From assembly GCA_024743055.1 (NCBI GenBank), contig JANSXH010000003.1:124001-188000 (forward strand): a stretch of 64,000 bases of DNA, given 5' to 3'. This document shows positions 3,848 through 29,836 of the stretch, piece by piece (the first letter of the stretch is position 1; each line of letters begins with the position of its first letter). Made by a program: the position numbers and the translations under genes. Under the pieces are notes generated by a model. That model saw only the letters and a list, made by a program, of their open reading frames with translations, made no database searches and was not told where the DNA came from. The stretch comes from Pseudomonadota bacterium (GTDB lineage: Bacteria > Pseudomonadota > Alphaproteobacteria > Sneathiellales > Sneathiellaceae).

Positions 3848-3863
3848 TGTTTCACGTGAAACA
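3848..3863. promoter_or_regulatory. parS: parS centromere site (left of the proposed origin)
   Basis: TGTTTCACGTGAAACA is a perfect 16-bp palindrome identical to the chromosomal parS consensus bound by ParB. It lies in the 204-bp gap between the DUF1330 and cupin genes, about 12 kb to the left of the proposed oriC. Two identical copies lie to the right at 25331 and 27641. Confidence 0.9.
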
Positions 3864-14635: not shown

Positions 14636-15454
14636 CTAGATTTCCGAACCCTGACGGCGATTAAAGAGGGTAATGATCTGTGCGGCGGTTTCCTCTACGG
14701 AGCGCCGGGATACATCAATAATCGGCCAGCCCTCTCGGGTACACATTTTACGGGCGAAAATCACTTCTTCCTTGATCCGCTCCCTATCCACATAATCCGT
14801 CTCAACGGTTTCATTGAGACTAAGCAGTCGGTTTTTACGAATTTCCGATAACCGCTCTGGGCTTGTGGTCAATCCGACAACAATAGGATTTTTCAACTGA
14901 AATAACTCATCGGGCAGCGGAATACTCGGAACAATCGGCACATTTGCAGTTTTATAGCCACGATGGGCCAGATAAAAGGAAGTTGGTGTTTTTGAGGTTC
15001 GTGACACGCCAACCAGAACGATATCTGCTTCTTTTAGGCCTTCCGGCATCTGACCATCATCATGGGCCAAGGTATAATTAAGGGCTTCGATACGACCAAA
15101 ATAGTCCTGATCGAGCATATGCTGCCGACCCGGCAGCTGTTTTATCTCCTGTCCCAGAAAACTGGAGAAAGCTGCCAACACCGGATCAAGAATTGAGACA
15201 CAAGCAACATTCAGGTTCTGGCATCCCGCTTCCAGTACCCGTCGCATCTCTGCATTGACCAGGGTATAGAGCACAAGACCCGGTTTTTGTTTAATGGAAT
15301 CAAGGATATCATCCAGCTGACGGACAGTTCTTGTCAAGGTCCAGACATGTTCAATTGGAGCCACCCCTTCAAACTGGACAAGGGCCGCCTTAGTCATTGA
15401 TTGTAAGGTTTCACCGGTTGAATCCGACACCAGATGAAGATGAAATTCCGCCAT
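14636..15454 (-). CDS. PpsR-type kinase/pyrophosphorylase (PEP synthase or PPDK regulator, DUF299)
   Basis: A 272-residue regulatory protein that phosphorylates and dephosphorylates PEP synthase or pyruvate phosphate dikinase. It starts MAEFHLHLVSDSTGETLQ, the family N-terminus, and has the P-loop GVSRTSKTPTSFYLAHRGYKTANVP and the end WPIIDVSRRSVEETAAQI. The ATG at 15454 is chosen over one 16 codons upstream because family proteins begin here and because the longer form would run into the DnaA-like boxes. It is the first gene of the leftward operon beside the proposed origin. Confidence 0.92.
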   Translation of the reverse strand: MAEFHLHLVSDSTGETLQSMTKAALVQFEGVAPIEHVWTLTRTVRQLDDILDSIKQKPGLVLYTLVNAEMRRVLEAGCQNLNVACVSILDPVLAAFSSFLGQEIKQLPGRQHMLDQDYFGRIEALNYTLAHDDGQMPEGLKEADIVLVGVSRTSKTPTSFYLAHRGYKTANVPIVPSIPLPDELFQLKNPIVVGLTTSPERLSEIRKNRLLSLNETVETDYVDRERIKEEVIFARKMCTREGWPIIDVSRRSVEETAAQIITLFNRRQGSEI

Positions 15455-15848
15455 TAAGGACGCCTGTCTAGCTGTGAATAATGTGGATAACAGGGATAAC
15501 ATGGCTGCTGGGAAAAGCCTAAAAATTTTCTCCCCGAAGGATGGTTTTTCATCCTCTTAGAATTCCGCATGTGATTAAATTGATTTCACCAAATTGGGAA
15601 ATGTGAATAACTGCCAACACAGGATCCAAAAAACAAGTTATCCCCATTATCCCTGTTTTTAGAGTGACCTGAAATCGTGATTACATCGTAGTAATTCACA
15701 AATGTGCGAAGGGCTGGATTTTATCCCCAGATTTTCTATAAAGGGTGTGAATGAATTTTAATCCCCAGCTTTCACAGCCATCAACCACTACTACTACCTT
15801 TTTATAAATATATTTATAGAAGGGGATAATGAAGGAAGGCCTGCCCGA
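15455..15848. other. oriC: Proposed chromosomal replication origin (oriC)
   Basis: The 394-bp gap between divergent ppsR and hemE holds at least seven 9-mers equal or close to the DnaA box TTATCCACA. One is exact on the minus strand (15482-15490). TTATTCACA types lie at 15473-15481 and 15602-15610 (minus strand). TTATCCCCA lies at 15638-15646 and 15721-15729, TTATCCCTG at 15647-15655 and, on the minus strand, at 15491-15499, and TTATCCCCT at 15821-15829 (minus). An AT-only-like tract (TTTTTATAAATATATTTATAG, 15799-15819) next to hemE could be the unwinding element. The hemE neighbourhood matches the known Caulobacter origin. No dnaA gene is in the window. Confidence 0.75.
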
Positions 15849-16892
15849 GTGACAAAGACTGAAGATAAACTCATGCTCAGAGCCCTGTCAGGGGAAATCA
15901 CGACCCGGCCTCCTTTTTGGCTCATGCGCCAGGCTGGTAGATATTTGCCTGAGTATCGGGAAACCCGTGCGGAAGCCGGTAATTTCCTGGATCTGTGCTA
16001 CAATCCGAAGCTAGCCGAAGAAGTAACCTTACAACCTTTGCGCCGTTATGGCATGGATGCCGCCATCCTGTTTGCTGATATTCTGTTGATCCCCCATGCT
16101 CTCGGACAGCCTCTAGCCTATCGGGAAGGAGAGGGGCCGGTTCTAGATCCCGTTCGGAAGAGGGAAGATCTTAAAAAACTCAGCCCGGAATTTATCCATA
16201 CCACCCTGGAACCCGTCTATGAGACCGTCTCGCGCTTAAGCAGCTCAATTCCGGCCGATTGTACGCTGATCGGATTTGCTGGTGCGCCCTGGACGGTGGC
16301 GACTTATATGGTGGAGGGCCGGGGATCGAAGGATTACGTCAATATCAAGAAATGGGCCTATGGCGATCCGGAAGGGTTCGGTTTGCTGATGGATATGCTG
16401 GTCGACAGTACCATTTCCTATCTTGCGAAGCAGGTGGAAGCTGGTGCTGAAGTCGTGCAAATTTTTGATACCTGGGCCGGTGTGTTGCCAGATGATGTCT
16501 TCCATAAATGGGTCATAGAGCCGACAAAGCGAATTGTTGAGGGGTTGCGTCACCAATTTCCCGAATTGCCCGTCATCGGCTTTCCCAAGGGCGTTGGCGG
16601 CAATATTATAGACTTTGTGGAGGAGACAGGTGTTACCGCCGTCAGCCTCGATACGGGAACCCCACTTGATTGGGCGGCGCGCGAGTTGCAATCCCGTTTG
16701 CCCGTTCAAGGTAATCTTGATCCGATCCTGCTGGTTTCCGGTGGTGCAGCCATGGAGACCCGTATCCATAAAATTCTTGATACCCTTGGCAAGGGTCCTT
16801 TTATCTTCAATCTGGGACATGGCATCATTCCGCAAACACCGCCAGAGCATGTGGCGGAGTTGAGCCGGATCATCCGTCACCGGGCAACCTGA
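15849..16892 (+). CDS. hemE: HemE, uroporphyrinogen decarboxylase
   Basis: A 347-residue cytosolic enzyme converting uroporphyrinogen III to coproporphyrinogen III. It shows the N-terminal signature [20 protein letters not shown] with the substrate-binding Arg, [33 protein letters not shown], and the C-terminal [13 protein letters not shown]. The start is a GTG at 15849 with GAAGGAAGG about eight bases upstream. It is the first gene of hemE-hemH-hemJ, reading away from the proposed origin. Confidence 0.96.
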
Positions 16893-25330: not shown

Positions 25331-25346
25331 TGTTTCACGTGAAACA
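25331..25346. promoter_or_regulatory. parS: parS centromere site (mnmE-mnmG gap)
   Basis: TGTTTCACGTGAAACA, a perfect copy of the parS palindrome, lies in the 230-bp gap between mnmE and mnmG. It is about 9.7 kb to the right of the proposed oriC and 2.6-3.5 kb upstream of parA and parB. Confidence 0.92.
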
Positions 25347-25453: not shown

Positions 25454-27316
25454 ATGATTGATTTTGATGTGATTGTGATCGGGGGAGGGCATGCTGGCTG
25501 TGAAGCAGCGGCGGCTTCTGCGCGCCTCGGGGCCCGCACCCTTTTGATCACTCACAAACTCGATACCATCGGAGAAATGTCTTGTAATCCGGCGATCGGC
25601 GGATTGGGCAAGGGGCATCTGGTGCGGGAGATTGATGCGCTCGATGGAATCATGGGCCGGGTGGCCGACGCCGCCGGGATCCAGTTCCGTCTTCTCAACC
25701 GCCGCAAGGGCCCAGCCGTGCGCGGCCCCCGGGCTCAGTCGGACCGTAAAATATATCGCGAAACCATGCAGGCGGTGTTGGCCGACCAGGACAATCTGGA
25801 AATCCGGGCCGGGGCTGTGGAAGACCTGATTGTCGCGGACGGCGTTGTCGGCGGTGTGATCCTGGCCGACGGCACAGAGATCCGCTCCGGCAAAGTCATT
25901 CTGACGACAGGAACCTTCCTGCGGGGCCTGATCCATATGGGCGAAACCAAGATCCCGGCGGGTCGGATTGGCGATGATCCTTCCAACGGCCTTTCAAACA
26001 CTCTGGAAACCGCCGGATTTGAGCTGGGTCGCCTGAAAACCGGGACGCCGGCGCGGCTTAAGGGGAAAAGCATCAATTGGTCGATCCTGGAGGAACAGCC
26101 GGGCGACGACATCCCGGTACCCTTCTCCTTTCTGACCCGAGAGATCACAACTCCGCAGATTTCCTGCCATATCACCACCACCACCGAGGCGACCCACGCC
26201 CTGATCCGGGATAATCTCGATCGGGCGCCGATCTATTCGGGGCAGATTGACGGCACCGGCCCGCGCTAGTGCCCCTCCATCGAGGACAAGGTGGTGCGCT
26301 TCGCCGATAAAACCGGCCATCAGATATTTCTGGAGCCCGAGGGGCTGGATGATGACACGGTTTATCCCAACGGGATATCCACTTCTCTGCCAGAAGAAGT
26401 GCAAATGGCCTTCTTGCGCACCATTCCGGGGCTTGAAGCGGTGGAATGGGTGCGGCCGGGCTATGCCATCGAATATGACTTCGTCGATCCGCGGGAGCTT
26501 AAGCTCAGCCTGGAGACCCGGCGGCTTAAAAATCTCTATCTTGCCGGACAGATCAACGGCACCACCGGCTATGAGGAAGCGGCAGCACAAGGCCTGATGG
26601 CCGGGATCAATGCGGCCAGGGAAGCTGGGGGCGGGGAAACCGTCATTCTTGACCGGGCCGAAGCCTATATCGGGGTGATGATCGATGACCTAGTCACCCG
26701 CGGCACCCAGGAGCCCTATCGCATGTTCACCTCCCGCGCCGAATATCGGCTGGTGCTCCGGGCCGATAATGCCGATCAGCGGCTCACCGGCCTCGGTATG
26801 GAGATCGGATCTGTCGGGTCGGAGCGGGCAAAACATTTTACCCGTAAGACTGAAAACCTTGAATCCGCCCGAAGGATGTTCAGCGATCTCAACATGACTC
26901 CCAATGAAGCCCGCAAACACAGCCTTAATGTCAATCAGGACGGCGTGCGGCGCAGCGCGGCCGATCTCCTTGCCTATCCGGATATCGATCTGGACGACCT
27001 GATCCGCATCTGGCCCGAGCTTTCAGCCGTCGATCCCGATATCCGCGAGCAAATGGCCATCGACGCCCAGTATAGTGGCTATCTGGAGCGGCAGAAGTCG
27101 GACATCCGGGATTTCCGCAAAGACGAAGCCCTGGTCTTGCCCGAGGATATCGACTTTTCCAAGATCGGCGGACTTTCGGCGGAAGTGCGGGAGAAGTTCA
27201 AGGCCGTACGGCCCGCAACACTTGGCCAGGCAGCGCGGATTTCCGGCGTGACCCCGGCGGCTCTGACGGCGCTCCTCTCTTATGTGAAACGCGGTGAGCA
27301 TCGCCATCGTGCCTGA
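25454..27316 (+). pseudogene. mnmG: MnmG (GidA), tRNA U34 modification enzyme, interrupted by an in-frame TAG
   Basis: The frame encodes a 620-residue FAD protein that forms the MnmEG complex. The N-terminal FAD motif [12 protein letters not shown], the [21 protein letters not shown] region and the C-terminal helical domain (ending near [12 protein letters not shown]) are all present in one frame. Codon 272 (26267-26269) is TAG, where the family has Tyr in GPRYCPSIEDK; the sequence here reads GPR-stop-CPSIEDK. A single base change from TAC or TAT explains it. No frameshift accompanies it and the downstream half shows full conservation. If real, only a 271-residue fragment would be made, or a suppressor tRNA would be needed; a sequencing error is equally possible. 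Confidence 0.93.
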
Positions 27317-27938
27317 GCCTGGCAAAATCCTCAGCAAAGAGCAGTTTCAGGCGCAGACCAATGTTCCTCATGAAACAATGGAAGCTCTCGGGCGCTATGG
27401 CGCTTTGCTGGAGAAATGGCAGAAAGCCATCAATCTCGTCGGCAAATCGACCCTCCCGGATCTCTGGCGACGGCATATGCTCGACAGCTATCAATTGCTC
27501 TCAAAGACCCAGAAAACTAGCGGAACCTGGCTCGATCTCGGCAGTGGCGCTGGCTTTCCGGCCCTTGTGGTCGGGATTTGCAGTGAGTTTGAGGTCCATG
27601 CGGTAGAGAGCGATCAACGCAAATGCCTCTTCATGCAAAATGTTTCACGTGAAACAATGGTCAGCATTGCTGTCCATAATTGCCGCATCGAAGCGCTCCC
27701 GCCAATGACGGCCGATATCATCTCGGCCCGGGCCCTGGCCCCGCTGGAAAAGTTGCTGGAGCTGGCAACCCCTTTCGCCCATGCCGACACCGAGTTCCTG
27801 TTTTTAAAGGGACAAGATGTAGATGAGGAATTGACCAAAGCCTCTAAATGTTGGAATATGGAGATTGAAAAACACAGTAGTGTAACCAGTGAAGAAGGCT
27901 GCCTTTTAAAACTCACAAAGGTGCGCCGTCTCGCCTAA
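27294..27938 (+). CDS. rsmG: RsmG (GidB), 16S rRNA m7G527 methyltransferase
   Basis: A 214-residue SAM-dependent methyltransferase acting on G527 of 16S rRNA. The N-terminus has [31 protein letters not shown], and the SAM-binding motif is [17 protein letters not shown], followed by [17 protein letters not shown] and [13 protein letters not shown]. It starts at GTG 27294, overlapping mnmG by 23 bases. The parS site at 27641 is inside the reading frame and encodes NVSRET; this is a common arrangement in alphaproteobacteria. Confidence 0.94.
27362..27377. promoter_or_regulatory. Degenerate parS-like sequence in the 5' part of rsmG
   Basis: TGTTCCTCATGAAACA matches parS at 13 of 16 positions, with identical flanks (AA before, ATGG after the site region) to the perfect copy at 27641. 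It encodes NVPHETM against NVSRETM at the perfect site. Many alphaproteobacteria carry parS at this N-terminal place in rsmG, so this may be a decayed site. Confidence 0.4.
27641..27656. promoter_or_regulatory. parS: parS centromere site within rsmG
   Basis: Third perfect TGTTTCACGTGAAACA in the window, inside rsmG and 302 bp upstream of parA. It serves as a ParB loading site and also constrains the rsmG protein sequence there. Confidence 0.92.
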
Positions 27939-27957: not shown

Positions 27958-28773
27958 ATGAGTAACAGCGTGTCGCATCTGACTTCCGGAAAATCCGCCC
28001 GCATCCTGGCCATCGCCAACCAGAAAGGCGGGGTCGGCAAGACCACGACCACCATCAATCTGGCGACGGCCCTTGCCGCCATCGGCCAAACCGTTCTCAT
28101 CGTCGATATCGACCCCCAGGGCAATGCCAGTACCGGCCTCGGCGTCGCCCGCGATGACCGGGAGGACAATGTGTACGGCGTGCTGATGGGGACAACCCCG
28201 ATCAAATCCGCCATTCATCAAAGCAATATCCCTCATCTCGACCTGGTGCCGTCGACGGCAGACCTGTCGGGCGCGGAATTAGAGCTGATCGAGCTCGACC
28301 GCCGCAGCCACCGCCTTTATGACGCGATTTCCGAAGTGCGGGACATGTACGACTATATCCTCATCGATTGCCCGCCGTCCCTCAATCTGCTGACCTTGAA
28401 CGCCATGGTCGCCGTCCATGCGGTGATTGTGCCTCTGCAATGCGAGTTTTTCGCCCTCGAAGGTCTCAGCATGCTGATGAAAACCATCGAGCGGGTGCGC
28501 AGCACCCTCAATCCCGGGCTCAATATCCAGGGGGTGGTGCTGACCATGTTCGATAAACGCAATAATCTCTCCTTGCAGGTGGCCCAGGACGTTCGCGATT
28601 TCCTCGGCGACAAGGTGTATCAGACAGTGATCCCGCGCAATGTCCGGGTTTCGGAAGCCCCGAGCCATGGCAAGCCTGTCCTTATATATGACCATCGCTG
28701 CGCCGGCAGTCAGGCCTATATCGGTCTGGCCAAAGAAGTAATCCGCCGCGAACGCCAACTCAACGCGGCCTGA
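27958..28773 (+). CDS. parA: ParA, chromosome-partitioning ATPase
   Basis: A 271-residue Walker-type ATPase which drives movement of ParB-parS complexes. The deviant Walker A is QKGGVGKTTT with the signature Lys (K23) and K28. Further motifs are VDIDPQGNASTGLG, the Walker B DYILIDCPPSLNLLTLNAM (partial) and TIPRNVRVSEAPSHGKP-like text VIPRNVRVSEAPSHGKP. It lies 19 bp after rsmG and 25 bp before parB in the usual order. Confidence 0.96.
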   Translation: MSNSVSHLTSGKSARILAIANQKGGVGKTTTTINLATALAAIGQTVLIVDIDPQGNASTGLGVARDDREDNVYGVLMGTTPIKSAIHQSNIPHLDLVPSTADLSGAELELIELDRRSHRLYDAISEVRDMYDYILIDCPPSLNLLTLNAMVAVHAVIVPLQCEFFALEGLSMLMKTIERVRSTLNPGLNIQGVVLTMFDKRNNLSLQVAQDVRDFLGDKVYQTVIPRNVRVSEAPSHGKPVLIYDHRCAGSQAYIGLAKEVIRRERQLNAA

Positions 28774-28798: not shown

Positions 28799-29836
28799 GT
28801 GATGACAATGATGACTGACGAAATTTCCAAGAAGAAACTCGGACGCGGCCTTTCGGCCCTGCTCGGTGATGATGTAGCTAGTGATTATGCGGATCTCGAC
28901 AAGGTCCGCAGCACCAAGGAAGTGCCGGTGGAACAGCTCCGCGCCAACCAGTTCCAGCCGCGTCAGGACTGGGATAAGGAGGCGCTTCAAGGGCTTGCCG
29001 ACTCCATCGGGGAAAAAGGCATTTTGCAACCTATCCTTGTTAGGCGCAACCCTGGCAAGGATGGGGAGTACGAGATCATCGCCGGGGAACGCCGTTGGCG
29101 TGCAGCACAGATGGCGCAGCTCCATGAAGTGCCGGTGATCATCAAGGAATTTACCGATGCCGAGAGCATGGAAATCGCCATCATCGAAAATATTCAGCGT
29201 GAAGACCTCTCTCCCATCGAGGAAGCGGAGGCCTATCGCAAGTTGATGGATGATTTCGGCTATGTGCAGGAGACCTTGTCGAAGAAGGTCGGCAAGAGCC
29301 GCTCTTACCTTGCCAATATTCTCCGGCTTCTTATCCTGCCGACCAATGTCCAGGCGATGATCCGAGATGGCCGCTTGACAGCAGGGGCGGGGCGTACCCT
29401 GATCAACGCAGAAGACCCGGAAGCCATGGCTTTCCAGATTGTTGACGGCGGCCTGACCGTTCGTGAAGCCGAAGATCTCGTTCGCAAAGATAGTAAGAAG
29501 AAGACCCCCGGCGACAATATCGCCAAACGCCAGCAAGCCTGGAAAAGCGCCGATGTCATCGCCCTCGAAGAGGACCTCTCCGCCGCCATCGGTATGGCCG
29601 TCGATATCGATCATAAGGAGAACGGCACCGGCACCCTGATCATCCGCTATGGCGATCTCGACCAGCTCGATGATGCCTGCCGCCGCCTGACCCGCGAACC
29701 CCTGCATCTCCTCGGTGAAGAAGAAGACCCGCTGGACCCCGGTGATATGGTGGAAATCTACCCCTATAAGGGCGAAATGACCGAAGCCATCTCTGACGCC
29801 CTCGAAGACCCCAACGGGAACGGCGAAGAGAAGTAA
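28799..29836 (+). CDS. parB: ParB, chromosome-partitioning CTPase and parS-binding protein
   Basis: A 345-residue ParB. The N-terminal ParA-interaction region is KKKLGRGLSALLGDD (11-25). The CTP-binding domain holds GILQPILVRR and the Arg-rich patch GERRWRAA (96-103), then ENIQREDLSPIEEAEAY. The HTH contains KVGKSRSYLANILRLL. The C-terminal dimerisation part ends near GDMVEIYP-like segments. Several starts are possible (GTG 28799, ATG 28802, 28808, 28811); the first is given. Its binding sites are the three parS copies here. Confidence 0.95.
   Translation: MMTMMTDEISKKKLGRGLSALLGDDVASDYADLDKVRSTKEVPVEQLRANQFQPRQDWDKEALQGLADSIGEKGILQPILVRRNPGKDGEYEIIAGERRWRAAQMAQLHEVPVIIKEFTDAESMEIAIIENIQREDLSPIEEAEAYRKLMDDFGYVQETLSKKVGKSRSYLANILRLLILPTNVQAMIRDGRLTAGAGRTLINAEDPEAMAFQIVDGGLTVREAEDLVRKDSKKKTPGDNIAKRQQAWKSADVIALEEDLSAAIGMAVDIDHKENGTGTLIIRYGDLDQLDDACRRLTREPLHLLGEEEDPLDPGDMVEIYPYKGEMTEAISDALEDPNGNGEEK

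Follow-up and report, generated by a model that had tools for sequence, protein, structure and literature searches.

A probable chromosomal replication origin in the gap between ppsR and hemE of a Sneathiella-type bacterium

Organization of the ppsR-hemE region

The window, the whole stretch of 64,000 nucleotides that was analysed, corresponds to positions 124,001-188,000 of a 292,383-bp contig from a 3.6 Mb genome in 26 contigs. The closest relatives of its hemE gene belong to Sneathiella, with 86% identity to a Sneathiella MAG and 78-81% to cultured species.

A gap of 394 bp separates two operons that are read in opposite directions: ppsR, maf, aroE, coaE and a dnaQ-type exonuclease gene to the left, and hemE, hemH, hemJ (UPF0093) and rho to the right. 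These assignments were made from Pfam and NCBIfam matches and upheld the divergent arrangement described in a first-pass annotation of the sequence. The gap gave no Rfam match to a structured RNA. An alternative in-frame ATG for ppsR was found at 15502; the codons added by it (15455-15502) overlap the conserved left box array described below. The conservation over this extension probably comes from the boxes, and the likely start of ppsR is at 15454.

The parABS components found in the window are listed with the other features in Table 1. In one relative (G007) eight exact parS sites were found; three of them are at 3.67-3.88 Mb of contig C1 and another is at 211 kb, and they are spread more widely than those of the complete close relative G001. 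The mnmG gene (25454-27316) of the window is interrupted by a TAG codon at 26267-26269. The two halves share one reading frame with this codon and jointly cover TIGR00136; the TAG reflects either a genuine nonsense change or an assembly that carries a sequencing error.

The dnaA gene lies outside the window, at contig position 105,426, which is 34.4 kb to the left of hemE; in a set of nine genomes this distance was 33-39 kb, always to the left. The statement of the first-pass annotation that no dnaA gene is nearby is thus correct within the window, but not for the contig, which carries both genes.

Table 1. Positions of the features in the window
Feature	Position	Strand	Basis
oriC (almost certain assignment), gap between divergent ppsR (DUF299) and hemE	15455..15848	.	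boxes, AT tract, position, GC-skew turn, conservation in 23 genus members
ppsR, PF03618 kinase-PPPase	14636..15454	-	profile match
hemE, uroporphyrinogen decarboxylase	15849..16892	+	PF01208 match
Left array: TTATCCCTG, TTATCCACA, TTATTCACA, head-to-tail, zero spacer	15473..15499	-	sequence
DnaA box TTATTCACA, weaker genus conservation (78%)	15602..15610	-	sequence and alignment
Right array: TTATCCCCA then TTATCCCTG, head to tail	15638..15655	+	sequence and alignment
DnaA box TTATCCCCA	15721..15729	+	sequence and alignment
Trio-proximal tandem pair: TAATCCCCA and degenerate GCTTTCACA	15759..15776	+	sequence and alignment
DnaA-trio-like tract, plus strand CAACCACTACTACTAC	15782..15797	-	three 3'-GAT-5' trios on minus strand
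AT-rich probable DNA unwinding element	15798..15820	.	AT content vs contig
Box-like TTATCCCCT, far side of unwinding element	15821..15829	-	GGATA invariant in all relatives
parS TGTTTCACGTGAAACA, exact	3848..3863	.	sequence match
parS, exact	25331..25346	.	sequence match
parS, exact	27641..27656	.	sequence match
parA-type ATPase	27958..28773	+	profile match
parB	28799..29836	+	TIGR00180 above cut-off

DnaA boxes of the gap

Predicted DnaA boxes were defined as sequences with at most one mismatch to TTATCCACA. The segment contains five of them in 394 bp, against 0.092 expected on the basis of the 292-kb contig; in 5,000 dinucleotide shuffles of the segment the count never rose above three, and the runner-up 394-bp stretch of the contig contained two. 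The motif TTATCCMCA occurs 41 times in the 3.6 Mb genome: three copies are inside the segment, and no two copies elsewhere lie within 400 bp of each other.

An exact TTATCCACA is located at 15482-15490 on the minus strand. The other boxes are TTATTCACA at 15473 and 15602, both on the minus strand, and TTATCCCCA at 15638 and 15721, both on the plus strand. Near-boxes were found as well: on the plus strand TTATCCCTG at 15647 and TAATCCCCA at 15759, and on the minus strand another copy of TTATCCCTG at 15491 and TTATCCCCT at 15821. Boxes and near-boxes are arranged together as arrays in a 9-bp register. TTATCCCTG, the neighbour of the exact box, occurs three times on the entire contig, twice within the segment. 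The first-pass annotation had reported at least seven box-like 9-mers, with a single exact one at 15482; every box that it named was recovered.

In G001 a separate tight group of three TTATNCACA boxes was observed at C1:1600562-1600594 (1.60 Mb), far from the origin.

Trio-like tract and AT-rich element

To the right of the tandem pair at 15759-15776 the sequence continues with CAACCACTACTACTAC and then with CTTTTTATAAATATATTTATAGA. The first of these, a trio-like tract that the first-pass annotation did not mention, is the only CTA repeat of at least three units on the 292-kb contig. The basal unwinding system (BUS), described for Bacillus subtilis and in a broad survey, consists of DnaA boxes and DnaA-trios; its rule asks for at least three DnaA-trios (3'-NAN-5') near a DnaA box with at most two mismatches, or near a tandem pair (PMC8287927). 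Read by eye against this rule, three GAT trios are present at 15788-15796 beside the tandem pair, and the trios start 11 bp past the degenerate box (four mismatches) and 20 bp past the box with two mismatches.

The adjoining stretch 15799-15819 is 95% A+T, a value exceeded by no 21-mer of the contig, in accordance with the AT-rich tract noted earlier at this place. The segment as a whole has a GC content of 39%, against 51% for the contig. A pattern combining trios and AT tract had one match in the source genome. Three relatives matched it, each once and at the hemE locus; six other relatives, whose tracts are variant, were not matched by the pattern in its strict form.

Conservation in the genus

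The genus comparison drew on a pool of 23 further genomes, and the gap was aligned for 23 genus members, namely the source genome and 22 others. Boxes, trios and AT element recur at the ppsR-hemE locus in all 22. Over the 23 members, the columns of these elements were approximately 78-99.6% conserved, versus 63% for the remaining gap. The highest value belongs to CAGGGATAACA at 15491-15501 (99.6% over the 23 genomes). The position of the degenerate GCTTTCACA reads TTATCCACA in more distant Sneathiella.

A wider set was formed by 72 relatives that share the divergent ppsR-hemE arrangement, and their gaps contained a mean of 2.7 boxes, versus 0.08 in shuffles; this set is not an unbiased census, because it was selected by hemE similarity and includes near-duplicates.

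GC skew and assignment of the origin

The first-pass annotation had made its inference, that the segment is oriC, depend on a GC-skew minimum not far from 15.65 kb. On the source contig the cumulative skew has a broad floor, and its lowest point lies 7.7 kb rightward of the hemE start; this contig alone was too blunt, and eight relatives were therefore added, giving a set of nine genomes. In all nine, the skew was negative between dnaA and hemE but positive over the 35 kb past hemE, so that the change of sign occurs at hemE rather than at dnaA. The cumulative minimum was located at most 1.4 kb from the hemE start in five of the nine; in G001 it fell at +266 bp inside hemE, 36.7 kb from dnaA. 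Both the turn of sign and these distances answered the proposed test in favour of the segment. Two of the relatives had a further minimum that was slightly deeper, located 86 kb (G007) and 69 kb (G003) to the right of hemE. When the skew was sampled around G001 and G007, one pattern of two arms emerged, whose other turn is near 1.9-2.4 Mb.

In many bacteria the origin adjoins dnaA. The same could hold here, 34 kb to the left, with the box cluster of the gap serving otherwise: dnaA shares the contig, and a two-slope fit on the source contig alone breaks at 102 kb, near dnaA. However, the skew is still falling between dnaA and hemE in each of the nine genomes, the G001 minimum is far removed from dnaA, and no box cluster was found at dnaA, the 1.3 kb upstream of it containing only two weak boxes with two mismatches. 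Because of this skew course and box scarcity an origin beside dnaA was rejected, and we regard it as very unlikely.

The cluster sits between divergent genes and some promoters are known to be regulated by DnaA, which raises a different explanation: the segment might be a two-way promoter under DnaA control, or a site titrating DnaA, for ppsR and hemE, and no origin. The three-box cluster at 1.60 Mb of G001 indicates that clusters by themselves are no proof of an origin. Such a function would account neither for the trio and AT tracts nor for the change of skew sign in nine genomes or the proximity of parABS, and we consider it extremely unlikely as the sole role of the segment, which could serve as a promoter besides being an origin.

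The 394-bp ppsR-hemE segment is almost certainly the chromosomal replication origin (oriC). The assignment is based on the clustering of the boxes, the uniqueness of the trio and AT tracts, conservation in the genus, the change of skew sign and the proximity of parABS. Counting against it are the broad, displaced skew minimum and the two-slope break of the source contig, the deeper further minima of G007 and G003, and the degenerate state of the trio-proximal box. The earlier inference to the same effect is backed by the boxes, the skew, the conservation and the Caulobacter-type position.

Initiation at this origin may be pictured as follows. DnaA would bind the left array and the plus-oriented boxes on the right; a DnaA filament would then grow rightward from the 15759-15776 pair, engage the trio tract (15782-15797) on its minus strand and melt the AT tract (15798-15820), immediately upstream of hemE. 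Helicase would be loaded at the melted tract, and forks would depart both ways.

Comparison with known replication origins

The assignment narrows the origin of this Sneathiella-type chromosome to approximately 400 bp; within the literature searched, no paper on the replication origin of the Sneathiella lineage was found. The genus-wide alignment tells which bases of the origin stay constant.

According to PMC1914354, the experimentally identified origin of Caulobacter lies between hemE and COG1806/DUF299, as the first-pass annotation had stated in placing it next to hemE; the hemE-COG1806 boundary is common to Rickettsia and Caulobacter and is there termed likely ancestral. The Caulobacter-type gene neighbourhood thus marks the origin in the Sneathiella lineage too. 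Cori of Caulobacter crescentus resembles our segment in flanking genes, similar size, AT-rich element and DnaA boxes (PMC1914354, PMC4285127), and the predicted origin of Rickettsia prowazekii shares the same gene boundary (PMC1914354). Since the locus coincides with the known Caulobacter origin, the segment can be classed, with good support, as an unexceptional example of an established type, the hemE/COG1806 origin.

The TTATCCCCA box of the segment, the variant named in the first-pass annotation, includes the Caulobacter W-box core TCCCCA (PMC4285127), whereas its consensus-type boxes TTATCCACA and TTATTCACA differ from the G-box TGATCCACA used in Cori. Published work reports CtrA sites at most alphaproteobacterial origins; Cori has CtrA, IHF and GANTC sites, and CtrA and IHF sites are reported for the R. 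prowazekii origin. In contrast, the segment contained no CtrA site (TTAA-N7-TTAA) and no IHF consensus WATCAANNNNTTR at up to one mismatch, and no GANTC site; exact CtrA or IHF sites were absent from the gap in all 23 genus members. Matches to TTAA-N6-TTAA were discarded as CtrA sites, because the CtrA spacing is 7. The genome encodes SciP- and GcrA-family proteins. The segment has the divergent gene pair, boxes, AT-rich element and GC-skew turn of a hemE/COG1806 origin and is not of the CtrA-controlled Cori type, both CtrA and IHF sites being missing.

With the BUS of Bacillus subtilis the segment shares tandem boxes, a short spacer, three 3'-GAT-5' trios and AT-rich DNA following them. It differs in that its GAT trios occupy the end of the tract distal to the boxes, while the triplets nearest the boxes are GTT and GGT, and in that the box next to the trios is degenerate in the source genome. 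The chances seem to us evenly balanced that Sneathiella origins are hemE/DUF299 origins of a form that lacks CtrA and IHF sites and combines a BUS-type trio tract with a genus-specific invariant TTATCCCTG next to the consensus boxes; an alphaproteobacterial origin might then be opened by the mechanism of the Bacillus type. The segment is a clear candidate on which DnaA-trio opening in Alphaproteobacteria could be tested.
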